From assembly GCA_029962745.1 (NCBI GenBank), contig CM057151.1:3840262-3904261 (forward strand): DNA of 64,000 nt. The letters run 5' to 3'. A program made the position numbers and the translations under genes. Source of the stretch: Echinometra lucunter. Taxonomy: Eukaryota > Echinodermata > Echinoidea > Camarodonta > Echinometridae. This document shows positions 4,664 through 29,600 of the stretch, one piece after another (position 1 is the stretch's first letter; the number at the start of each line of letters is the position of its first letter). Below the pieces are notes generated by a model that made no database searches, was not told the DNA's origin, and worked only from the letters and a program-made list of their open reading frames with translations.

Positions 4664-7600
4664 ATGCTTTACCATAAATTGGCAATTGGACTCGGTTCTT
4701 TAGCGATCTTACATCCAGTATTGAAACTATTAGGTTTGAACTCGGAGCCAGCAACGGTAGACATAGACGTCATCACAGCTGCACAAGACGACGAAATGAG
4801 GTAGATTCTCGATTCTTATTTTGATTTCAACTTAAGATTTTGCATTTGATTGTGATATCCATTTCTTTCCATCAATTGCAATGCCGCTTTTTTGTATTGT
4901 TTAAAAGAGGAGAGGTGGGATAGAAAGTGTGTGTGTGAGAGAGAGAGAGAGGGGGGGGGGGGGGCGGGGGAGAGGAAAAAAAACTGTGGAGGGACAGACG
5001 GGGAGAGAAAAAATGTTTCCTGCCTTTACTTTAAGATGAGCTATTCTGCAAAAGAAAGAGAAAGAAAGGGAAGAGATCAGCGCAATATCCAAAATAAGAG
5101 GCTACTGAAGAAGAAGAAGCAGAAGAAGAAGAAGAAGAAGAAGAAGAAGAAGAAGAAGAAGAAGAAGAAGAAGAAGAAGAAGAAGAAGAAGAAGAAGAAG
5201 AAAAAAAAAAAAAAAAAAAAAAAAACCAAGCGCCTCCCCGACCCACATCTATTTTCTAGTTTACTTAATTCACGACTAAAGTTCAATGTTAATGTTAAAG
5301 CTGAGTATGGATACGACACATCAGCCATGCCTCTTTAGAGAAATGTAATGACTTGGCGGCTTCTTGCAAGGACTCGTCACTTTTTTTTCTTAATCAGTCG
5401 GTTAAAATTGGGGCGCTCATTTCAAGTGATGCATGTTGTTCAGGCATGTTAGGAGTGTGACTTCAAATCGGTGTGATCTTGGTAATGAATGAATGAAGAT
5501 ATCACGGAGAAATTGTGCTCGCTCGTGTGTACTGTGTGTGGCGTAGGGTGGGGAGGGGGGGGGGATGAGTGATGTTGCCAATAGTTCGGATTTTTCGAAC
5601 GTGAAAATATACAGCTTTGTTCTGACATCCATCTCTGTATATTCCTACAAGAAAGTAGAATAATTGTTTTGTAGGATGTAGGTAGATTAGGGTTTCTGCT
5701 GCAAGTGCCCAGAGCCAAGATATGTAAGCGGCTTCTCAAAGCAAGTGAGGCCGGATCTGGAGTTTTTCTCCATGCTATATTTTTACTTATTCATGCAAGT
5801 AGGAAATGTCATGAAAAAGACGACAGGTGGGGAAGAGTGAGGACGTTCAAACAACAAAAATAAGGGAGGAAGGAGCTTCATTACAGAGAATGAACAAAGC
5901 AGTGCGTAGTAGTTAAGAAAACAGTTGAACTTTAACCGAAAATTTTCTTCATAAGATGTAGGCTGAAGATTTGAAAGGACTGGAAACCTCCCAAAATCTC
6001 CAGCTCAATAATTTCTTTGTACACGCACTTGTAAGACAGCTCAGTGATTAAAGGTTATGGGCATGATTCTTTTTAAATTAAGACTCGGTTATTCCCCTTG
6101 ATAACAGAGGTTTCAAGACATAAACTCTTGTAATGGTGGTGGTTGTTATTGTTTTCTACCAGTACCAACGTCTACCACAATGGGGTCCTTTTTGGTTTTT
6201 GGATAGCTGGGGTAGCAATCGCATTAGGTCGTCTTTTCTCCTACGCAATCTGTGGAGGGACAGGAAAGAAGCGAACTGATGTAGAAATACAGGTAAGAAT
6301 ACCTATACACCAGTTTTATCTCTTTGTAAACCAAATATTCCATTTACGGTAATCAGTGGCGTATCTAGGGGGTGCAAGAGGGCAAGTGCCCCGGGCGGCA
6401 CTTTGAGGGGGCGTAAAAAAACGCAAAAGAGAGAAAGAAAAAAGGGGGAAATGAGGGGGGAAAAAACCCATAATCCATAAGGATTATGCGCCCCATCGCG
6501 GCAGTGTGAATGGCAGTACATATACAGTTTTTGACGGTTTAAAATGCAAGAAAAAAATCTTAAGCTCGGTTGCTTTGCTCCCTCGCATAATAATTTACTT
6601 TCAGGATCTCGTAATTTCGAGCCCCCAGTATATAGTTCTTAAACAACTTTTTTCAAGGGTTCCAAATTTGAAAAATTAAGATATATTTGTCACGATGCAT
6701 AAAACAGTATTTGCAGAGGTTCAACATTTAAACGAAATCTCAACTTTCAATTATGCCCCCCCCCCCCCCGTCGACAGGGTAAATGCACTAGAAATACAGT
6801 TTTTTAGGATTGAGAATGCGAACAATTTCTAATGCTCGGTCGCTGTGCTCCCTCGCATAATTAGCTGCAGCACAGGACCTCCTAATTTTGTCCTCCCCCA
6901 GTATACCGTATAGTTGTACATGTACATGTATAAAGATGTAATTGTCGTTTATTTGCCTGCAGGCTATCATGGAAGTTTTCTCTCCCTCTCAATATTGTGC
7001 CCAAAATATATAATAAAGTGCATAAAACAGCATTTGAGAAATTCAACATTTACAACTTTCAGCCGAAATTCGTCGATAAGGCCTATTTCTCAAGGGTTTT
7101 CGTTCTATTTCACTCCCAATTTTAGAAGGGAGTGAATGGAAAACCGTTTATCAACGTACAAACTTCGAACTTCTCAACAGCTCGATTGCAATGGTCAGAT
7201 GCAAAATTTCCTGGGTAAAATGCGCAAGAAATGGCTTCCTCAATAAAGTAGATAGGTTTGGGCACTTGGGCGGGGGAGGGGGGGGGGAGCGCCCTGTATT
7301 GTTTGCCCCGGGCGCCATGATCCCTAGATACGCCACTAACGGTAATCAACCTTTCATATCAAGTGTCCCTGATTTGAAGTAGACAAGTCAGAGAAAGAAG
7401 ATTAGGGAATGTTTGAGGGGTAATTTGGGCAGAGAATTTAAGTCAGTTAACCCACTCTGTAAAAATCGAAGACCAATGTCAAGGGAAGAAATACGAAATG
7501 ATCGCATTGCTAGTGCATAGGTTTCCTTATTATTCCTGGTTTCAACTTTTAAAATTTCAATTACTTTTTGCTTGTCTAAATGTGTCAAACTATCATGAAT

Positions 7601-12546: not shown

Positions 12547-15500
12547 TCATCGCTTTTTCTTCATTTTCTTAGTTTTCTTCTCAAAAGGAAGAAGATTTCC
12601 CTCATCTCCTGTGAATGCAGTCATCTTGTTCTCTGGCCATGAAGCCTTCACTGGACTGGTACCCTTTCTTCCATCCTTCTCAGACTGTTGAGATGTACCA
12701 GCAGATGCAGAGTTGGGATCATACCTCTCTTTGAGTCTTTCCCTGATAAGAAGACTTTTGATGAAGAGTTTCCAGTGGTTCATTGCTCTTGCTTCTCTTT
12801 TCTGAACACAGAGTTTAAAAAAGGAAGAAAGAAATAAATACTATTTGCAAACAAACATAGAAGAAAAGGATGAAAGATATTTAGAAAACTGGAAAGAAAC
12901 ATAGAGGAAAGATTAAAACATAATAGTTACAAAATAGATACAATATACTTTAAAAATGTAAAGAGCTATGAATTTTCAACACTTAATACCTATACCTCTT
13001 ATTTTCTTCCTCTGAAATATACTAATTACTATAGGCTTTCAGTCTGTTCAGATAAATTTCCACTGTTTATCAGTAACTCACTTTTCATCCAACATTATTT
13101 TTTCAAAAGTCATAGAGAAATCGTAACAAATGGCTTATGTATTGCATAATCAGTGTTATACATGTATGGATACATCTACATGTATAACAGCTATTTTATT
13201 CATTAATTATAGATTCTAAGTTAAATTTGGGGTAAAAAAAAACCCGTTTAAATGAAAGGATTATGATACTGCATACAACGTTGGAAGGAAACAAATAAAA
13301 GTAAACAATTTCTGATCAATAGATTATATTGACATCTTAGAGCTACATGCATTCTGTTTTCATTCACTGAACAGGAACGTTTGATTTCCTCACAGGACAA
13401 AAGCTTGTATGGATAAATCTACAAGCATATATTACATTCAGATTAAAGAAATAAAGCAGAATATTTTATATCTTACCTCTTTTTCTTTCTTCTCTTGTTC
13501 TGCTTTATCTTCCTCCCAAGCAGCTACTAAGACCTCAGCATGCTCCTCACAGACAACAAACCCATCCATTCTATATCATCATGGAAACAACAACAAACAG
13601 CATCAGTATATAAGTGGAAGGACTAATACCAATTCCTGTCCATAAATTATCAAACAAGCCCTAATACTTGTGAAGGTGTTCCCACTGTCATTTCATCCAA
13701 CAATAATCACTGATAACCCTTTTGATGAAAATAACCTTCAGGTCTTCATATCCTAATTCTGATGCCAGATATGAGTGCTACACAATAAGTAATACAGAAC
13801 GTTACCTCATTCTATATCGGAAGCAAAATAAAGTCCTATCTTGCCATGCTGTGCTAATAACTGACAAAGATGTATATTGGTTTAAATGAATCTCTTCAAA
13901 CAAGTTCCATGGAGCAAATATACAGAAGTATCATCTCAAGAAGTTCTACTGGGATATCTGCTTATGAAAGTAAAAGACTTACACTGGATGGATGTAGCCT
14001 GAATGGAAGTCCCATCCCATCATGGCAGGCGCACAATCTATGTCAAGCTTACGAGCAATCTTGTTCAATCCAGGAACTAATATTATTGATTCAAAACAAA
14101 ATGGAGAAAGAGATAACAAATTTGAAAGAATGTCCAGACTTACATAGGGTGGTTAATTCCAGAGTGAAAGTCCCAGCCAGTCATAGCTGGAGCACAATCG
14201 ATGTTCAGCTTGCGAGCCACTCTGTTTAGACCTGGAACTAAGGGAAAAACAGAAATTTCAGGTTGGAATTAGCAATAATTAAACTGCCACTCATTTGAAA
14301 CAAAGCTCAATACTGACCTTCTCTAATACTAAAATGATCCAACCAGATTTCAAAAGAATGAAATTAAGTAAATTGACTATCAACAGATAAAAATAATTTT
14401 GGCTAATAAACATGCATGCATAGAAAACATCACAGCATTCATCTACAATAATTAAAAAAAAAATATAAAAAAAGGGAATCTCTTTGGAAACAAGGTCAAA
14501 ATCAAGCCAAGGTAAATGGTGACTGTTAACTATCGAAAGTATCTACATAAAGCAATGGGTGTCCATATTTATACAGAATCAAATCATTGCAGTAAAACGA
14601 TAAAATACTTTGAATTTACATGGAATTTATCAGATGCTTCCTCAAGTGTTCCAACATGCATTACAAATCTGCCATCTATGGCGCAGCGAAGGGTGTGATC
14701 TTTAACTTGCCATCCCCCAAACTCTCAGCACACCAGCTCAAATCCAGCCTATCCAATCCCCCTCCTACCACCTCTCTTACAAGGTCTTAATCTAGAATAT
14801 TAGAAACAGCACTACTTACTCTTAAGATGCACAGTGCCAGCTGGAAGCATGGTAGGCTTGAAGAGTTCTACATTGCCATACTCACTACGAGGTACCTTCC
14901 CATCTACAGCAGGAGGTGGGATGTAATCTTCTACTTGCCAAACCCCAAATATCCCAAGGGTGGCCTCTTCTGTTTTGATCACACCTACTCCTTTTTTCTG
15001 TGGAAGCCAATAACAGTATGAAACCTCCATGACCTACCACACCTTCCATGATGTAAAGCAGTTAATATTAATGACATACCACTTCATATCTATAGCTAAA
15101 ACTAATTCACTTGCTAGGAATATTCACAAGTCATGTTAATGGAACAATGTCAGTGTTTTTAAATTCTAATTCATATGAGACATCTTTCAGGGGCCTGTTT
15201 CTCGAAACCGTCATAAGTCAACTTCTCAGCTAAGATCGCCGCTAGTTGGCTAGTTGTCAGCAACTTGTTTCACAAAGCCGTGTTTGCCAAGATCAACACC
15301 AACATCCCGACTAAGAACTTATTACGCCTCTGACTATGTCATATCTTTTTTCGTTGATATGCAGCGCCATCACATGTCACTAATTTGGTAGATTATGGCT
15401 GGCCAAAATAAAAGCTACATAGATTTAAAAATAATTCAAATCTATCTTTTCTTCGGGTTCCTGAAATCAGTAATTCATCCTTGCTTATATATATAAATAT

Positions 15501-18500
15501 TATATTTCATGTTTCATATGAAATGATCTGCAAAAAAAATTTCCTAGGGGGTTTCTCCCGTGATTGTGACATCTCACAAAAGAACGCAATTCTGCCACGT
15601 CGGGCAAGGCATAGTCAAAGGGATAGTCTGTAGATTTCAGACCCATATCTATTTAAATATTGTGGATTTTTAAACAAAATACCTTTTAAGACATATATTT
15701 TAGCTTGTAATTTGCCAAAATTGTGCATATCAACGTTTTGGTGAAGCCATGATGCTGGATAAACATCTAATTTGCCTCCTTTTTACGATCATGAACGTAA
15801 GTATTTATTTTGAAAATCTAGTGTCCCGGGGATACCCATCTTATGTTCAAAACGACATGAAAACTTAATTACTAAAAACAGAATTTTATAACTTTTTCTT
15901 TGGTGTAATCTGCTTAATATGAAAAACATCTTGTATCTATAACCCCTTGCTACTTTTTCTAATCTTTGCACTCACTAGTTCACTCAAATAATTGCAGTTT
16001 TGATAAAATTCTTTTACAAAATATATTTGTTACTGTGATCAAGGCTATGTGTTGTCACGTTTCCTCATCGATTCACAAGATATTTAGCTAGCATGCTCTT
16101 CGTGAAACGGTTTAGCAAGATCAGAGTCATCTCCGTAGTTGGCGGACAAAGATATGACTAACTTGGCGTTGGTTTGCAGACACAGGCCCCAGGCAACTAC
16201 AGAAACTGTCACCTCAATATCCTACTTGATGAATATCATGTTTACATACCAATCCTACATGATATCTGAAATGAAATGTAAGATGGCAATGTGCAGAAAC
16301 AAAAGATAACAAGATATCCTACAATGGGAGAATATGCACTCATAACCACATTGAACCAATCAAAGATGTTACTTTGATAATGCAAGCAATCTCCTTACCC
16401 ATTTTGGTCTTGGTTTCACCATCTTGTAAGGTTTTTCACCGATTCGGATGGCTTTCCCTTCCTTCATCCATGTCTCTCTTGTGTGTAACTAGGAGCAGAA
16501 AATAAATATGAAGATAAATGTCTGTGTAGACAATCATCTGAACTTAATGATTCTTTTTTAATGAATTTGGATAATGACACCCGATTAAATTTACATGGCT
16601 GCAGTACGCTTGGAAAAGCCTAAGGATGAATATGTGGTTCAGATAAAAGGGGCCTAAAGGGCCATGTGCCCTCTCCCCATACCATAAATGACAAAAAAAA
16701 AAAGAAATCATAAAAAGAAGAGGGCAGTAGAGAAAGAAATAGAAAAGGTGAAAGGATGATGAAAAAATGAAATGAGTCTATCCATCCACCTTCCATAATA
16801 TACACAGATCTCATTATGCCTATGGAACCTAGAAGAAAGCTTCCCAGGAAAGTTGGAAATTGTATATTACCAATTCAACAGAATTTCTTATATTCAGCTT
16901 TGACAAAATGAGACAAGAATCACTACTTACTGTATGTACGCATTCTCTGGAATATACAGCCTCTCCTCTGCAATATCCTATAATGGCTGCAGACTCAGGA
17001 TACAAAGCTTCAAATTTCAGTAAATGTCTCTTCAAAGCATACCTTCACAAAAGATATCAAAATAAGTGATATTTATGAAGAAATATCTAACATCACACAA
17101 TGAAAATACTGGCAGTTTGGAATGTTAAACGCTACAGTGATATTTGTCATAATTCCTTTCCTCCACTCCATGAATCTATTCTGTGATTTCCTTCACTGAT
17201 ACATGTACTTGCTCAAATTTTAATACTCTTCAGTCACTGCATTCACAAAGGTTCATCAAATTAAGGAATAACAAAAGAATCTAGTATCAATTAATAATGA
17301 AACACTCCTGCACAATTTACAGACATACATACACAAAGTAAAGACTACACTTAAAGTCAACAACATGTCACTAGTGGTATGTCTTACATTTTAACTGCAA
17401 AGATTCATCGAATTTCTTGCGATACCTATCCAATTTTAAAAATTGACATGCGGGTAGGAGTCTGTTCAATGACTTACAGAGGGTGGTTCTTGTATTCTGA
17501 TACAGATGTTGGAAGTGGCTTGCTTGTAAGGTTACCTGACAAAGAAAGGAAAAGAGCAAAATTCCACAACTTTCATCAAGAATACCTTATTTCTTTTAAA
17601 TATGTGTTAGACTCATCATCAAGTTTTAATTAAAGCAGGGCTGCACTCTAACTTCTTAGTAGGGAGCCAGAATGAAATGTCTAAAGTCTGTGTGCAAATC
17701 TGAACACTACATGTATAAGGGTCAGGTTAAAATTTGAGGCCTATGTGCATTTGATGCCGGTTAGTTGAACCTTTTCTAACAGAAAGCTTATCCCCCATAA
17801 TACAAAACTTTCATCAAATAGAGTCCATAAATAAAATTTGTTAAAAACAAAAAAATCACACACACCAACAACTCAACCTACTCTGAGTATCTGAGTCTTC
17901 TTTCCTGTCTCTCTCTTTATTGCTACAGTATGGCTTCAAGGTTTCTTCCCACCACTCATCAACAGGTCTCAGTTTGTGTGTCTCTGTCATCCATTTGGAG
18001 GCATATCTTCTTGTAAGGTCTTTCACACAGCCATCTATACAATAAACAGAATGGTGCATAATCGAAATAAACCAAATTAAATTATTCTGTAAAACTATGA
18101 TACATTAACATCATTTAGAATTATGGCAAAAGTAGTTTGCAGCAATTATAAATGAAGAGGTGCTGAAAAGCAAACTGTGTTTTTCCTTTGCTCTATTATC
18201 AAACTTTCTACTGAACTCTGAGCAACAAAGTCATTCAAGTCAAATTTCAATCTCTGCATTGCATTGGCAACATTTTCCTCATGTGTTTGGATAGTTTGAT
18301 GTGCTACAGTAAAACACAATTATCAACATAATACAGGATGGGTGAGTTTAACATTAATAAATTTTCTGAAGTCTCCTCCCTAAATTAATCACCACACTAC
18401 CCCCTCCCCCTCAAAGAAGGAAAAGGAAGAAAAAAAAAAAAGAAAATGTTTAGGAGATGAGGTATATTCTTACCATTCTCCACACCAATGACATATGTGA

Positions 18501-21500
18501 TAGGTTTGGTAGCTTGTTTCTCACACATTTCAGGTTTGTTGATCAGGGATCTTACACAATCCACACATACCCAACGCTTTTCAGAAGACAGATATACCTC
18601 AAGCCAACAATCAGAACCTATATGAACAATATGAAGTATCCAATGAAGTTTTTAAAATAATTTTTTAGCTGCACATTTTCAAAACTTGCCAACACAAATT
18701 ACATGATAATCAGAGTCATATTTCATAATCAAACAATTCTTCTCATTAATCTAAAGATAGCAGGCACTGGTAGTAGACTAAGGTGTAAAAACAGCCATGA
18801 TCATTTTTCCTGAGAGATTGTTATAAGTTTTTCCTCATTCTACTGATGAGCTTTCCATAATACATCCCATAATACATTGCAAAAAGCTTCGATCATGTCA
18901 TAGAATCAAAGTACGATTAAATTTGTTTCTCTGTTAAAAAAATTCCATTCACATAATTGGCTTGTGATAGGTAGCAGCAATATCTGATAATTTGGGAGAA
19001 AGCAAGTGTAAAATCAACTTGTTATCACAAAGATACATACCTGGGTCTAAGACATCTACTAGCATCACAGTATCTTCTGAAGAATCAGAGGACAAAATCT
19101 TCCTCGAGGCTTTCTTCTTGTTTCCATTCATCTTTGTTTCAGTCTTCCTTGGGTGCTTGGTAAAAATCACGACTTTCTCTTCAAAGTCACTGTCAGATGA
19201 CAACTCCTCAATGCTGGACACTGATGATGAAGCCAATTTGGATTTCTTTGCGGACCCCTTGGTAGAAGACATCATAGACTTTCTTTTTGATGCAGATTTT
19301 CTCTTAGATGCAGATTTCCTCAGTTCTTCCTCATAGTCACTATAGTCATCATCATCCCATGCGTCTTCTTCAACCTCCTCCTCATCATCATCGCTCTGGG
19401 ACACCTTAGATGCTACTGCTCTTCTGGAGTTGTTCTTTGCCCTCAGAGTTCTCTTCTGAATTTGTCCTTGGCTGGATGCTATTTGTTTTTTCTCTCCTTC
19501 CTTCATAACACTGCGCTCACTCCTTTCACTTCTCGTTGTGCTCTCCGGTGTCTTCTTTGCTGCTGCCTTTTTCTCCTTTACGGCTTTCCCAATGGGTGTT
19601 CTATCTTTTCCTCGAGTACTATCAGCTTTAGAAGATGTAGTCTTGGAGTCTGATGATGTGGACTGTGTCTTTGCAGCAGATTGTGAAGGAGTCATCTTTG
19701 TGTTTGAAGATGTGGACTTCACCTTTGGAGCACTAGTTGATGACTTGTTTGATGAAGATTTGCTGGGTGACTGAACAGATTTTGAAGATGAGCCATCACT
19801 ACAAGAACTGGACTGCTTTGGATGCTCTTTCTTCTGTACCTGTGGCAGCTTCTTGATTGGTGCTTCTTTATTAGCATTCTCTGACTTGAATTTCTGCACA
19901 GTTAGATAAAAGTGGAAAACATTTTTTTTTAAATGCACAAGGGTATGACTTCACATATATCACTCAAATTTTAAATAAACATTCACATCTCACATACTCC
20001 TTTGTTTTCATAAAAGGCCAGGAACAACATTCTGCACAACAACTGATCTTATATAGTCTCTGAATCCACAGTATGTTTTCAGCAAATATCCAATTATGCC
20101 AAATCAAGGAATAACTGGTTACCTTGGTGAGCTTCTTGGCCTTAAAGGTCAATGGCTGAAGAGAGAATATGAGACGTACATCTGTTCCTAGGCACCGCAT
20201 GATGATTGCAAACATCTGTGGAGAGGTAGATAAAGACATTTGTCTAAATCATGTTCATTTTTAAATCAGTGATTATGTATAAGAGTCAATCTCACTAACT
20301 GATATTGTGGATGAAATAAGTCAAATAACAGGAGACAATGACAAAGTGAAGGAAATCTATGGAAAGATTGACTAGCTAAAGAATCATAATTTTTATTACA
20401 GAGCATGTCCTACACTTGAAGCCCCATACCCAATTGATATGTGATAACTTGCCTACAGTTTCATTTAAAATCAAACACCCAGTTATTATTTTCACAGTAA
20501 TTTCTCCAATTCCTTAACTTGCAAGTGCTTTCTTAATGAAATTTTCTTCAATGTGCCATTACATATGTGCAATTTATACTTGTGGTCTGAGAATCTGTAT
20601 ATTTAAAGTCTGAGGAAATGGAGAAAAGGGAATCAATTTCATAAAATTGAGCACAATGAGACCCTATTACACCATAATCTGAACACATTGGTTACAATCT
20701 ACTTCAACTCACATGAACTAGTTCTCTCTCTGAAGCAGCTTGTTTCTTTTCAAACATGGCAGGCAGGATGCGGTCTAAAGATGATGTCATATCTTCCTTC
20801 AGATCGGTTCTGATTTTAAAGCAGTTCTTGAACCTTTCAACAAAATATGACATATCATACACAGAATCTTGAAACATGTCCATCTTTATGCAACTGCATA
20901 CATGTTTTTGTGAAAATGTGTATAGAAAAACCATGTGTCCTCCAAGTCCAAACAAATAAAAGATAATTTTGATGACAACAGATCAAATATGTTGCTAGAG
21001 TTCAGTTGCTTTCTTCACAGTAAAATAACAGCTGTCCTACACTCTAAAATCTAAAAGGTGCTTAAGTGAGTTTTATCATTCCTAATGTAGAAAATATTCT
21101 GGGAGCAGAGTATAAGTGCAATATCTAAAAACTTCCTTTTTTATATATATATGGATCACCATAAAAAAGTATAAATATATCCATACAGGCCTATTTGTGA
21201 TGGGAAAGTCATCCACAAGAAATGGATAACATAGCAATCAAAGAAAAACTTGTGCACATTCAAATTGAACTAGGAATAGAAAAATTCAAATGAATTACAC
21301 AGGTGATGCAAAAAAAAATATATTGTGGAGAAGGGGTATACTTCATCAAAAACATGTCTTCTTCTTATCGGATCACTGCGCCTCAACAAGGTACATGTGG
21401 GCTTAGAATGTCCCAGTCCAGTGATGGATGCATTGCTTTGCACAGGGGAGTCAGAGCTGCCAGATCTTCTTGGGTGCAAGGCGCTGGTAGAAGGGGGCAG

Positions 21501-24500
21501 ACAAGGAGATGTTGCATAGTCTGCTCCTCTCCACACAGGCAGGTGGTGTCGTTATTTTCACTATACCCTCACTTTGCTAGGTTGGTTCTGCAGCGGCTGG
21601 CAGCAGTTCTTAGTCGGTTGCAGCATGACCAGAAAGGCCATTGAAGGAGCGTTCACGTCGTGGTCCCTGTCAGGTTTTTCACTTGCGAATCCTTCAACTA
21701 CACTACGCTATCAACAATTATCAAAAACATGTACTGGCATAGTATTACTGTAATCACTGGTAAAATGATACTCTGTGAACTTACCAGCCAAGAATTTTGG
21801 TGAGATAGTTGATATTAAGTTGTTTTGGTCTCTTAGAGAGAATGTCTGCTGGTATGACAGACAGGGCCAAGCACTGAAGCTCCATCTTGTTGCATATCTT
21901 GTTACTATGGAAACCACTGGCAAGAAGCAGGACCAGATGAGCCTGTACAACAAGTTGAATTGCTTTTAAAACAGGTTTTAACATGTAACAAGTCATTTAC
22001 AGAGAGTTCATTCATATGCTTTTTTTATGGTAGTGTCTATAGATTCTGCTGAAGAGTATTTTGCTCTGATTGAAATCAGCTGACAAGAATCTTAGAATAT
22101 AAGTGATACCTTACAAAAACAATACAAATCTTTGATAATCTTACTTTCATCTTATCCACCGTAAAAAATGATAGGGGTTCCATTGTAACAATCATTAAAT
22201 TCATTAAGTTTCATCCACAAATTTGTGCTAATTTCTAAAAAGTGTATTTTTACCTTGTGTAGCAGTAGTTGTCTTTCCTTGTTATATTTGTTGACTTGCC
22301 ACTGGAAATAATTTGCCCAGTTATATTCTCTCTTCCTGATTATAAGAAGGAATAAAATATAAAATAAAAACAGACATGAATTCTAGATCTATGCAGCATA
22401 ATATCTATTCCTATTATAAAATCCATGTACATGTACCCTTTAAACATTATTAAAATATAGATCTTCAGTATTTCATTCCATCACATGAATAGATTGGATG
22501 ATTCACATCAAGTATCATAAAACAGAATCACAGAAATTTAAGCAAATTTAAGCAAAGGGATAAGATTCCAAACATGTATGGATAGTTATTTGATATTTGT
22601 TTACACTATTAGAATGCCATATAGCCCTTTACTTCAAGTTCACTGATTATGATTAATATGGAATGAACAATTTGCACATTATAATGATTGTGAGTATTAT
22701 TTCCTTGTTGATCATTCTACCATTAATCATACTCTTACTTCTTCTTTCCTGCTTTTGATGTTCCTGGTAGATCAATATCAATCTCAAGGGACATCTCCTC
22801 TGCCTTTGCTTCCTTCTTGGGGGTCAATGTAGGTTCTCCTAATTCATTCATTGGAGTGTCTGGGGGAAAAAAAAATACAGGGACAAAATCAATACAAATT
22901 CATATTGTTAAAATGTCATATATGTATATTAGAATAATAGTATTGTAACTTTTATGGTTTCTTGATGAAGTGTATCTTGTTCACATCCAGACCAGGTCAA
23001 TGGCACCTTTACTATTAAACACATATCAAAGAGACAAATATGTCATGTACTTCATGGGATTAATTAAACTTGTGCAAGGGCTTCAATTAAAAATTCAATG
23101 CAGCAAACCTAATTGAAAAAAAAAAACAAAACAAAACAAAATGACAAACAAACAATCATTAGCAATTTAAAAAGTGGTATGTCATAATGACAATCTACAT
23201 GTATTATTAAAGTGTAAGTTTCACTGAGGTTCAATTTTTCCCTTCAGACTATTTGATCTGATCATCATTGTAAATCTTTATCAATCATTCATCTTACCTT
23301 CCACTTCCTCCCAGTCTGAATGGCTGTCATCAGATGACATATCAGCATCCTCCTCCTTGACATCAACCTCCATCTTCTCTATTTCCATCTTGGTCTTTTT
23401 CTTTCCTTTGGTCTTTCCTCTTTCAAATTTCTTGATGGGAGCATCCTCTTCCTTCTTCAAATCAGTCTCCATCTTATTTGTTTCTTTCTTGGTATCCTTC
23501 CTTCCCCGGCTCTTTCCTTTTCCAACTTTCTTCAGAGTATCAGCATCCTTCTCCTTCATATCAACTTCCAGCTTTACACTGGCCTTTCTTCTTCCAGCTT
23601 TCTTGATAGTACCAGTATCTTTTTCCTTCAGATCAACCACCATCAAATCCACCTCCATCTTGGTCTCCATCATGGTCTCTTTTCTTCCCTTGGCAATATC
23701 CATCTGATCTGTATCTGTCTTGGTTTCTTCCTTTCCCTGGGTCTTTCTTCTTCCAGATTTCTTCACAGTCTTAGCATCCTTCTCCTTCACATCAATGTCC
23801 ATCTGATCTGTATCTGTCTTTGTTTCTTCCTTTCCATGAGGCTTTCTTCTTCCAGCTTTCTTCACAGTCTTAGCATCCTTCTCCTTCACATCGATGTCCA
23901 TCTGATCTGTATCTGTCTTTGTTTCTTCCTTTCCCTGGGTCTTTCTTCTTCCAGATTTCTTCACATTCTCAGCATCCTTCTCCTTCACATCAATGTCCAT
24001 CTGATCTGCATTTGTCTTGGCCTCTTTGTTTCTGTTTGTCTTTCCCCTACCAGCTTTCTTGACAGTATTGGCATTCTCCTTCACATCAGTCTCCTCATAT
24101 ATCTCCGTATTTGTTTCCTTCTTTCCCTTGGCCTTTCCTCTTGCTGTTTTCTTGACATAATCAGCATCTTCCTTCACATCAACCTCTATCTTATCCACCT
24201 CCACCTTGGTTTCGTTCCTCCCCTTGGCCTTTCCTCTTCCAGATTTCTTGTTAGTATCTGCTGCTAAATTTTTCATTTGGGTGGGGAAAAGTTTCCTTTT
24301 CTTTGCTGGACTTTCAATACCATCTTCCATGTCATGTTGACCTCCTTTTCCTCCTCTTTTCATGTTTTCTGTTTTCAACAGAGATGTTTCTGATATGGTG
24401 GGCTGGCTTATGGCTCTTTCTCTTTTCTTAGAGGTAGGAGGGAAGGTAGTGGCATGATCCCCTTTCTTAGTTTGTTTTTCATTTGTTGTTTCCTTGATTT

Positions 24501-25626
24501 TGGCAGCTTGTTTGCTATCTTTTGTTGATCTCTTTCTTATTTTTTCCTTGGATTTCATAGCAGGAGTTTCTTCAAATTCATTTTCATCTTCTTCCAGCTT
24601 TTCACTTCCATCAGAGAGGGTAGATTTAACAGTCAGTCTTGCATCATTCAGTCTGATCTTCTCCTTCAGGGTTCTCCCTGTCTTAAGATTATTATGGTCA
24701 GGGGTTCCAGGCTCATTAGAATTACCTTTTGAAAAATACTGTGATGTCACAACTGGTTTTACATCAGTCTCTTCTTCACTTATTTCTCCTTGATCACTTT
24801 CTTGGTCGACATCATCAAACAAGGACTTCGTGCATCCTTTAACCTTTCCATGCTGAGAACTTTCAAGATCTGGTATATCATCCAAGTCATCAAACAGTGA
24901 CTTTGGTGCTGGCTTTAGAGGAGATGATTCAGTCAATTCCTTTCTTGTCTTTATCATCTCTGATTTATCAGCTGCGACTAAAGTGGCACTGGCAGTTTTA
25001 GATTTATCTGTGAATGACTTTGATGATGAGTGTTTCACCTTGCTAGAATCTTTGATGTCTTCATCTTCTGAAGAAGAGTCACTTTCACTCAATGAAAGAA
25101 ACTGTTCTTGCGAAGCCTGACAAAGGTATCTTTCCTCAACCTTTTTCTCCTGTTTAACCTCAGCGGTCAAACCCTCTCCAAGTTTTTGGTTTGTATCTTG
25201 TGATCTGAATTTTCCCTTGACGAGACGTTTCTGCTGTTTGTTGGCTCCCTTCCATGTTGAAAGTGTTGCTTCAAAATCATCTTCATCTTCTTCATCATTC
25301 TCATCCTCATCATATTCTAAATCAAGGCTAACATCATCTCCGTCATCATAGTCATCTGTTGTTTTGATATCTTCCTGCATGTTGGCCATTTTCTTCACTG
25401 CCTGTAATTTGGCACTCCTGCCCCTCCGTCTCTCTGTTCCATTTGAAGTGACTTCAGCAGGTACCAACTCTTCATCTTGGACTGCAGACTTCATAACATC
25501 TATCGCCTTTGAATGTGGCTTCTTTTTTTGTTTGGTCTGTTTCTTCTTGACTTGAGGTTCTGAATTTGTATGTCTGTTGCTTCCCTTGCATGCCATTAAA
25601 GAACCAGAAACCTTACGTTTTGCCAT
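12547..25626 (-). CDS. XPC: XPC, DNA damage recognition subunit of nucleotide excision repair (1644 aa)
   Basis: XPC (Rad4 family) with its RAD23/centrin partners finds helix distortions in chromatin and recruits TFIIH. Coding exons in transcript order: 25626-23298, 22859-22739, 22335-22254, 21942-21785, 20833-20713, 20215-20123, 19893-19041, 18617-18474, 18034-17882, 17535-17478, 17042-16931, 16488-16399, 14997-14820, then one of 14237-14144 or 14076-13983, then 13570-13477 and 12801-12547. Phases agree throughout (4935 nt). An acceptor at 25657-25658 places a 5' untranslated intron before the ATG exon. The split transglutaminase-like fold covers about 820-970 and 1253-1370 ([22 protein letters not shown]). 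Beta-hairpin domains follow: BHD1 with [12 protein letters not shown] and [20 protein letters not shown]2 with [20 protein letters not shown]3 with [11 protein letters not shown]. The C-terminus [20 protein letters not shown] is the conserved tail. It is much longer than human XPC (940 aa), mainly from a repeat-bearing 777-residue first coding exon. Confidence 0.96.
13983..14076 (-). CDS. XPC: XPC alternative exon B: BHD3 hairpin, version [11 protein letters not shown]
   Basis: Second 94-nt copy of the hairpin exon, 67 nt downstream of exon A in the transcript, with the same phases and a GTAAGTCTT donor. Its acceptor (AATCAATAATATTAG) has a much weaker pyrimidine tract than that of A. It encodes [16 protein letters not shown] then [14 protein letters not shown] and joins as [10 protein letters not shown]. 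It is slightly closer to the vertebrate form, which also has Asp in KLDID and Tyr-x-His-Pro-Val after the glycines. It differs from A at 6 of 30 complete codons' residues and about 29 of 94 bases. Confidence 0.88.
14144..14237 (-). CDS. XPC: XPC alternative exon A: BHD3 hairpin, version [11 protein letters not shown]
   Basis: 94-nt exon, phase 1 in and phase 2 out. Its acceptor has a pyrimidine-rich tract (TTTTTCCCTTAG) and its donor is GTAAGTCTGG. After the split first codon it encodes [16 protein letters not shown] then [14 protein letters not shown]. It joins upstream to LK|I and downstream to [10 protein letters not shown]. The segment aligns with the BHD3 hairpin of Rad4/XPC, whose two aromatic residues enter the lesion site; here they are Trp and Phe. 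Compared with exon B, it has Thr before the GWDF motif and Ile-Asn after the glycine. Confidence 0.88.
15190..16190. mobile_element. About 1-kb inverted-repeat element, family shared with 60862-61870
   Basis: The left end GGGGCCTGTTTCTCGAAACC is matched imperfectly by the right end, whose reverse complement starts GGGGCCTGTGTCTGC and continues with CGTTTCACGAA-type sequence. The interior has short shared blocks (TCATATCTTTTT, GCCATCACA-GTCAC) with the RAD18 intron 1 element. No transposase frame and no clear target duplication were found. It is in an XPC intron, between 14997 and 16399. Confidence 0.65.
21383..21640 (-). pseudogene. LINE retrotransposon ORF2 3' fragment, broken
   Basis: On the minus strand a frame reads [17 protein letters not shown], stop, [10 protein letters not shown], then [18 protein letters not shown], and ends in a stop at 21383-21385. 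The Cys-x-Cys-Gly...Gln-Thr-x-x-His...Cys-Pro pattern is the C-terminal zinc-knuckle-like region following the reverse transcriptase in several LINE clades. The internal TGA (21569-21571) sits where a Trp is usual (LAKWGYS), so this copy is dead. No reverse transcriptase core remains; it is a truncated insertion in an XPC intron. Confidence 0.7.
23340..24252 (-). repeat. XPC: 99-bp tandem coding repeat in XPC, about nine copies
   Basis: The string CTGATCTG recurs at 23704, 23803, 23902 and 24001, exactly 99 bp apart. The protein unit is 33 residues: KK[AS][16 protein letters not shown], then [12 protein letters not shown]. Four central copies are nearly identical. Outer copies are degenerate ([30 protein letters not shown]) and vary in length. 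Each unit alternates a basic block with an acidic block, and the array ends just before the conserved DWEEVE motif. The frame is kept throughout, so it is coding, and the central copies look recently homogenised. Confidence 0.9.
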
Positions 25627-26696: not shown

Positions 26697-29600
26697 ATGG
26701 CGGAAGAATCAGAAGCAGTAAGTTAAGTTGTACTTGTAGACTATATTTATCATTATTGACAACATAAGCTTTTCTACTTGAAGTGGGATGTTCGCATTAA
26801 TAAAAAAATCCATGTGTTGATTCCCAGTTATAAGTTTTCATGTGTGGAAATATGAAAGAAAACAACATTGAGTTTGGACTTTAACTTAGTACATGAATGG
26901 ATGGGCATGTTGTTGATGGCAGTAGTCGGTCATGTGAATTTGAGGCTTTGAGCCTGTGCTGTGCCAGTGCCAATGCGCGTCATTTTTTTTTCCCAGGTGA
27001 GATCAGGGCTAAGGGTTTGTCACATGCGCAATGGTTACTATGGTTATTTAGTAAAGGATATAGAATCTAACATTGTGTAAGTTACGCGGATTCCTCAAGT
27101 GATGTTGTGTGGTCTAACGTACAGTTAGACTACTGATAGTGTGGTTGCCCTGATCTCGCCTAGGAAAAAAAAATTACACTGCCAGTGCCATGCTCAGTGA
27201 TGCTGCGCAGCCATGCTGAGAGCTTGATCTTAAGACCTAGGTCCAAGTCCAGATCCCAAGCTTTGCAATATTTTGACAGATTTTTGGGCCTTAAAGGCAA
27301 AGTCCACCCAGAAGTTTCTCTGTTTCAATAAAAGGAGTTAAATTTGAACAGCATTTTGAAAAAGAAATGAGCAAAATTGGTCAAAGAATAAGAAAATTAC
27401 ACTCATTTACATTTTCTAGTAAATTACTCTCGGCTCTGCAAATTGGCAACACGAATGACATCATATGCGAGCAGCTCTCCATTCACTTTGTACATGAAAT
27501 TTCACATTTTTTCAATTTTCTTGGAAGTTACACATTTTCTACCCCCCAGAGTCAATACATGTATGTTCAGAAGAATTGCTTTTTACATAACGTACTTTGA
27601 CTATGGGGTGAGAAAATGTTTAACTTCCAAGAAAATTGAGAAAATGTGAAATTTCATGTACAAAGTGAATGGAGAGCTGCTCGCATATGATGTCATCAGT
27701 GTTGCCAATTTGCAGAACCGAGAGTAATTTATTAGGAACTGTAAATGAGTGTAATTTTCTTATTCTTTGACCAATTTTGCTCATTTCTTTTTTAAAATGC
27801 AGTTCAAATTTAACTCCTTTTATTTAAACAGTGAAACTTCTGGGGTGGACTTTCCCTTTGATATCAACAAGTTTATCAGTGTAACATTAGGGTCTGTATG
27901 CACACAAGGTTCTTGGCATCAGCCATCATGTCCATTGCAGTTGCTGATGCAGTAATTGAATAAACTGCTGCTTACATGTAGACAGAAATATCCATTTGGT
28001 ATAGCGAATTTTTAAATAATCTGACATTTGCAATTTTTCCTAAATCCAGGGGACATTTCTTGCACTCGTTATTTGTGTAAAAATACGTTCTCTACACACA
28101 TGACTAGCGTTCATTTATGGAGAGGATAAGCGCTTTTTGTGCCAGCGCTTCCAGGTTTGATTCATATGTGTTGGGCTCATTTGCAGTTATTCATTAACCT
28201 TGTTTATTTTATTGTTAAACATAAATCTGAGTGAAATTATTCAATAAAAGTATTTTTTCTAATTTCCATAATATATTTTTGCCTTATTTACAATTTGAAA
28301 GCACTTCAGAGTTTTTTCTGTCAATAATGGAAAAAGCGAACTTGAAAAATTATTAATTGATTTGTGGAGATTTTGGATCCTCCTCAACACCTCAAGTGAC
28401 AGGGTAAAAAACTAAGGACAATCGCATCGTTTAAATCACTTAGTGTCGGTGATGGATTGTTTCAATGTAGATGATTCTCACATTATGATAAAGAATGCAA
28501 ACACAAACAAACACATTTAGAACAAGTTAATTCACTATTATTTACAGTTAAAAGAAAACAATCTTTTAAAAAAAAAAGTTGGGAGGAAATAGATTCAGGC
28601 AAGCATATTACATATGTATCTTCATAATCGAATTAAAAAAAAAAGATGATAATTGTATTGTACTGTTAAGATTAGTTATGTATATGTATGTTTTTCCTAT
28701 GTTATGTACAGGGCCTCTTAGGATAACAGCTTATTGCTGAAAGAGCCACCCTGTTAATTTAAAACAAAACGAATAAATTTAAAAAAAAAAATCACCAATG
28801 TAATGTTTCATAAAAAATTAACCAACAAAAGGAAACATGCAAATCAAAAATTCTTTTGTCATTCATTATTATTGATGGTGTTCAAATGTGTTTTATGATG
28901 CATTTATGTGCTATGTGAGGTTGTAAGTAAGGTTGTTATATGTTCACCTCATACAACCTGTCTGTAAAGACCACCTGTCTATAAAGACTGCTTTTGGCAT
29001 TTCCCTTGAACAATCTTTAAGACAAGTTTGACTGTATTTAGGATTGAAAAGAGGGTTTTATGTCTGTGGTTATGCATTTTTTCCCCATTTCCCCTTTTTG
29101 TAAAAAAAAAAAAAAAAGGTTTTTGTTTTGTTTTGTTTGTATTTGTTTCTAGTTTTCTTCTTTTTTTCTTTTTTTCTTTTTTTTTTTGAGTGCATGAGAC
29201 TGATGAGTGATAACCATGAGTTATGCCTTAACTTGCACATTGTAAACCCATTAGAGAGCTACATCAATCATTTTCAGACACTGCACTCTTTTTGTTATGG
29301 GGCTAGGATAAATGCCTTTTGTGCTTTTCATCATAGTGTAATGTTGACGAGTAAATTTCAAGTTCTTAACTATTGTATTGGATATTGACTTATTTATTTT
29401 ACTTGATTATATTTTATTTTTTTCAGCCCAGCCAACCAGCCAATACTGTGGAAGAACCACTAGATCTGATCAGACTTAGTCTTGATGAAAGGATCTATGT
29501 CAAGATGAGAAATGATAGGGAACTCAAGGGCAGACTTCATGTGAGGAGATTATTGCTTTGTATTTCTCAAATTTTTTTTTACTCCTTCTTGACTCCCTTG

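Follow-up and report, generated by a model that had tools for sequence, protein, structure and literature searches.

A predicted pair of mutually exclusive exons encodes two versions of the BHD3 helix and hairpin in an echinoid XPC gene

Global-genome nucleotide excision repair begins with XPC, which is believed to sense the distortion at every kind of lesion in the same way, with its single BHD3 finger. Human Phe797 and Phe799 act in flipping out nucleotides of the undamaged strand (PMC4713717). In yeast Rad4, the stretch that enters the DNA comprises tip residues 599-605 (PMC4354021), and a deletion of the same stretch is used in PMC7708039. Simulations of a Rad4 mutant without hairpin 2 indicated that Arg601 and Ser603 in the tip hydrogen-bond with the partner guanine (PMC7708039). 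Filamentous fungi carry Rad4A and Rad4B as separate gene paralogs, and Rad4B was reported to be functionally redundant (PMC9961694).

Tandem mutually exclusive exons have been described systematically. The WebScipio criteria are agreement in length, phase and splice sites together with homology, and on the Drosophila X chromosome only 90 of the 16180 exons not spliced exclusively share these features (PMC3228551). In a human survey, exon length is not divisible by three in 377 of 629 clusters, and a donor-to-branch distance below 50 nt, the steric criterion, flags 57 of the 629 (PMC5740500). Neither paper uses the term XPC in its main text. Among the matches listed from the open-licence literature, we found neither an XPC hairpin switch nor mutually exclusive XPC exons.

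Domain and database matches indicate that the minus-strand coding gene at 12547..25626 of the window, the whole 64,000-nucleotide stretch of Echinometra lucunter DNA that was analysed, is a member of the XPC/Rad4 family. In a PDB search, its C-terminal 260 residues matched human XPC over the whole length of the query (E=1.3e-104). Yeast Rad4 was matched by the same query, with a best E of 1.3e-22 among the 14 PDB sequences listed. The gene contains a pair of similar exons, A and B, and two isoforms were analysed that use one or the other. Pfam BHD_1, BHD_2 and BHD_3 are clearly above their cut-offs in both, BHD_3 at 97.7 bits with A and 94.9 bits with B (cut-off 27). Pfam Rad4 barely passes its threshold in both (27.1 vs 27 bits), the query holding only the end of this domain. 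The domain order in each is Rad4-BHD1-BHD2-BHD3. The Pfam BHD domains and the match to human XPC bear out the sequence-only reading, a first interpretation of this DNA, in which the gene was named XPC.

The gene model has 17 coding exons including A and B, with borders set by eye from GT-AG splice borders and the open frame alone. Both isoforms are open frames of 1645 codons. The predicted protein of 1645 residues is larger than human XPC (940 residues), partly because of a repeat array in the large first exon. This imperfect tandem array of ~99-nt units is located at 23340-24258 on the minus strand, with 5.7 copies at 23694-24249 and more copies on both sides, and encodes protein repeats. Antisense to XPC, in its fourth intron, a sequence at 21624-21696 on the plus strand matches the CPEB3/HDV-like self-cleaving ribozyme over its full length (Rfam RF00622, 45.7 bits, cut-off 35, E=4e-9). 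It is adjoined on the minus strand, at roughly 21620-21380, by an apparent 3'-end fragment of what we take to be a LINE. A long palindrome upstream of XPC (27293-27859), with a 91% match to its own reverse complement in a 574-column alignment, looks like a mobile element. Elsewhere in the window, a GAA microsatellite is found at 5107-5202 (96 bases, 32 copies, 97% match), and five other ORFs matched no Pfam family.

Exons A (14144..14237) and B (13983..14076) are both 94 nt long and lie on the minus strand. They are flanked by a constant exon on the 5' side (14820..14997) and a constant exon on the 3' side (13477..13570), which encodes the rest of BHD3. The latter is also 94 nt long, yet it gives no match to A or B in tblastn, and its length is apparently a coincidence. 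AG immediately precedes each of A and B, and the donor GTAAGTCT immediately follows each. Their phases are equal. The first codon takes one base from the upstream exon, which ends at 14820, and both A and B leave two bases of a codon that is finished by the downstream exon, which starts at 13570. When A and B are joined, eight codons (SWIEQDCS) are followed by TAA. When both are skipped, the frame shifts and stops are met. The first interpretation had described two 94-nt exons with equal phases (1 in, 2 out), AG/GTAAGTCT borders and a frame broken by joint inclusion, with TAA after eight codons, or by double skipping, and inspection of the sequence and translation confirmed all of this. Its statement that exactly one exon must be used per productive message also holds: since both-in and both-out break the frame, the pair is built as mutually exclusive.

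A and B are identical at 65 of 94 bases and, when the split codon at either end is included, at 25 of 32 residues. The 32 codons comprise nine that are identical, 16 that differ silently and seven that change the residue. For the 31 codons ahead of the junction codon the figures are 9, 16 and 6, and the junction codon itself, ATA in A and GTA in B, provides the seventh residue difference (I/V). A recount reproduced the base identity, the 16 silent codons and the approximately seven residue changes given originally. The homology of the pair stands as well, whereas the original figure of 24/30 identical residues does not; it becomes 25/31 when the split first codon is counted.

Several trivial origins of this similarity were considered. 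The local alignment of A and B scores 56 and the best of 1000 shuffles scores 28; in tblastn the two exons find each other with E values of 6e-16 and 1.5e-15. Chance similarity was rejected on these grounds. A haplotype or assembly echo was rejected on the 31% base divergence and on introns that lack similarity beyond the shared donor. Three comparisons of the introns around the pair, with 300 shuffles each, detected no similarity beyond this donor (P 0.35-0.83), so the exons alone have been preserved; if the duplication included flanking intron, no intron similarity remains. No third copy of the exon was seen in the window by tblastn, where all other matches have E of 0.37 or worse. Nor did tblastn, with the low-complexity filter on for the whole-protein query, reveal other duplicated XPC exons in the window besides the first-exon repeat array. 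Mutually exclusive exons are recognized by equal length (here 94/94 nt), compatible splice sites, the same phase and homologous translations, and A and B show all four. Very probably, then, they are a tandemly duplicated, mutually exclusive XPC exon pair that gives rise to two full-length isoforms.

Alignment to human XPC places the exon at residues 776-807, in the middle of BHD3. This region includes the hairpin, as had been claimed at the outset; more exactly, it is the helix-plus-hairpin part of the domain. A and B differ at positions 781, 782, 787, 795, 803, 804 and 807 in human numbering. Residues 803-804 are I-N in A and Y-I in B, and residue 795 is T in A and M in B. The human residue is kept by A at 781, 782 and 795, and by B at 787 (D), 803 (Y) and 807 (V), while A, B and human all differ at 804. 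A and B have the core GWDFHSG, including the two aromatics, in common; W and F (W-D-F) occupy the positions of human F797 and F799 in both exons. Rad4 F597/F599 were set against human F797/F799 by eye on the aromatic-x-aromatic motif, with the Rad4 stretch and numbering agreeing with the PDB chain. In this alignment, which is approximate as yeast is one residue longer here, 803 and 804 fall inside the tip. The claim of two different damage-recognition tips is therefore retained for residues 803-804 and dropped for the aromatic pair: the aromatics are the same in A and B, so they are not what is switched. From the tip residues we infer that the lesion preference of the two isoforms may differ.

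Both copies have been constrained at the protein level over the long term. Nei-Gojobori counts between A and B give Sd 20.0 over 21.8 synonymous sites, which is beyond correction, and Nd 9.0 over 74.2 nonsynonymous sites. We simulated the divergence of sequence pairs starting from A or from B, at four divergence times with 600 runs apiece, under a simple model (GC 0.36, kappa 2, hand-set omegas) that averages over time. With one copy neutral, none of the 2400 runs had seven or fewer residue differences. With one copy at omega 0.5, such runs made up 6% of 600 at t 0.4 and were missing at the three longer times, and 0 of 2400 matched both this measure and the observed Sd. With one copy at omega 0.3, the fraction with seven or fewer differences was 41% at t 0.4, 3% at t 0.7 and zero at the other two times, and both measures were matched in 2, 1, 0 and 0 of 600 runs at the four times. 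When both copies evolved at omega 0.05, 34-99.5% of runs had seven or fewer differences and 1-14% also reached the observed Sd, the latter fraction being small because the observed Sd is extreme. The corresponding values for both copies at omega 0.1 are 0.2-87% and 0-2.7%.

The codon-substitution test of A against B that the sequence-only reading had proposed thus indicates purifying selection on the protein in both copies. Synonymous sites are saturated, protein changes are few and none of the 2400 runs with one neutral copy had so few residue differences, so through most of their history selection has acted on the protein encoded by both copies. Under the simulated model, neutrality of one copy is excluded for the history as a whole, and relaxation by half is nearly excluded; a milder relaxation of one copy is less firmly excluded. 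The pairwise comparison averages over this history and leaves room for a recent loss of one copy.

The duplication is old, but it probably took place after this lineage and that of human had separated. Each copy has 12 of its 32 residues different from human XPC, and the two copies differ at 7. Relative to human, eight changes are common to A and B, three are found in A only and three in B only, and one position is different in all three. A and B are a closer pair than either is with human in 1895 of 2000 site resamplings. Their protein distance is ~0.53 of the distance to human, with a 95% interval (0.21-1.07) that just takes in equality. This estimate uses human as the sole outgroup and 32 sites, which is little data. 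Prokaryote and viral contig collections, searched for relatives in the hope of host contamination, gave 102 and 1 pattern matches, respectively, none of which was confirmed, in line with expectation for an animal gene.

Splice signals suggest how joint use of the two exons may be avoided. The intron between A and B (14077..14143, minus strand) measures 67 nt and is the shortest among the 16 introns of the model, the others ranging from 229 to 1401 nt. Its candidate branch A's, ranked best first with approximate, hand-set weights, lie at distances of 21, 53, 30 and 57 nt from its donor. Branch sites usually precede the pyrimidine tract, and the candidates at 21 and 30 nt do so. The intron upstream of A (14238..14819, minus strand, 582 nt) carries CTAAT, which resembles a branch site, 31 nt upstream of its 3' end, and has a pyrimidine-rich acceptor; the intron downstream of B (13571..13982, minus strand) is 412 nt long. 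In a small matrix built from the other 14 acceptors of the XPC gene, which themselves score -1.4 to 9.4, the acceptor of A scores 6.2 and that of B -11.1. The donors are alike (A 8.1, B 9.4). Intron-intron pairing was assessed in four comparisons with 200 shuffles each, and the fractions of shuffles with pairing as strong were 0.025, 0.56, 0.99 and 0.965; none of the four provides a convincing competing RNA structure of the docking/selector kind.

These signals suggest that the 67-nt spacing may help to exclude joint use. The tight spacing would disfavor splicing from A to B, and nonsense-mediated decay would clear any A+B products. With its good branch-like site, pyrimidine tract and acceptor, A would be the default exon. 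The weak acceptor of B and the 67-nt intron in front of it suggest that B would be used conditionally, when recognition of this poor acceptor receives help.

In the explanation that we favor, each productive mRNA would carry exactly one of A and B, and the two full-length XPC proteins would be the same except for the BHD3 helix and hairpin. Judged from the sequence, the species probably has two XPC damage sensors that differ slightly. The changed tip (803-804) and residue 795 would tune how easily the finger enters opened DNA and remains there; the W/F pair, which handles flipped-out bases of the undamaged strand, would be kept in both isoforms. A bolder reading, to which we assign a probability of about 0.35, is that an old, clade-wide splicing switch swaps the XPC finger tip. 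It would yield two sensors that differ in insertion strength or lesion range, for example between CPD and bulky adducts or between embryo and adult, and XPC would perhaps be the first repair sensor retuned by exon choice.

It is also possible, and we hold this view just as tentatively, that A and B are mutually exclusive but functionally equivalent, and that the duplicate is kept as a spare exon for different splicing environments without a tip-based lesion preference. This explanation shares the splicing part of the favored one and denies the retuning. The identical GWDFHSG core with both aromatics is consistent with it, as is the conservative nature of three of the seven differences (R/K, V/I, I/V). 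However, two adjacent tip positions change class (I-N vs Y-I), and 795 changes from T to M inside a segment that is otherwise tightly held. Of the seven positions that differ, six have the human residue in one of the two copies and 804 is a three-way difference, which also speaks against equivalence.

Another explanation is that joint inclusion lowers XPC levels through a frameshifted, decay-prone mRNA, so that only one protein matters. The stop in the A+B product falls inside B, with two exon junctions downstream (13983/13570 and 13477/12801), and such an mRNA is a predicted target of nonsense-mediated decay. A poison exon needs no conserved protein, however, whereas both copies are strongly constrained with saturated synonymous sites, and within a 67-nt intron steric hindrance may stand in the way of joining A to B. 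We consider this explanation unlikely. It is very unlikely that one copy, with B the likeliest candidate, was under constraint until a short time ago and is now a silenced relic, for although the B acceptor is weak just before the AG and pairwise tests cannot date a recent loss, B has an open frame, an intact AG, a donor that scores above that of A (9.4 vs 8.1) and D787, Y803 and V807 as in human.

Two natural fingers on a protein that is otherwise the same would be a ready-made experiment, able to reveal which tip residues set the balance of scanning, opening and lesion choice. The pair could also show whether animals adjust repair through splicing. If the isoforms are equivalent, it is still a clean case of an old, constrained exon duplication in a repair gene.

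Compared with known systems, A and B resemble the pairs defined by WebScipio in being neighbors in one gene with similar length, the same phase and splice-site type, and homologous sequence (PMC3228551). Unlike those pairs, they are here predicted from sequence. They resemble the human clusters in having a length that is not a multiple of three and a position within a folded domain, and possibly share with 57 of the 629 a short donor-to-branch distance (PMC5740500). As in filamentous fungi with Rad4A and Rad4B (PMC9961694), two Rad4/XPC versions are encoded in one organism; unlike the fungal paralogs, a single gene here swaps the probing finger only. The protein shares with human XPC and yeast Rad4 the BHD1-BHD2-BHD3 arrangement after the Rad4 domain and the aromatic-x-aromatic base of the hairpin, but F797 of human XPC is replaced by W in both A and B. 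Among the PDB entries listed, human and yeast have one hairpin version each, engineered deletions aside, whereas the tip of the XPC described here exists in two versions. Mutually exclusive exons are a known kind of arrangement, and their predicted occurrence in XPC would come as a surprise to a specialist.
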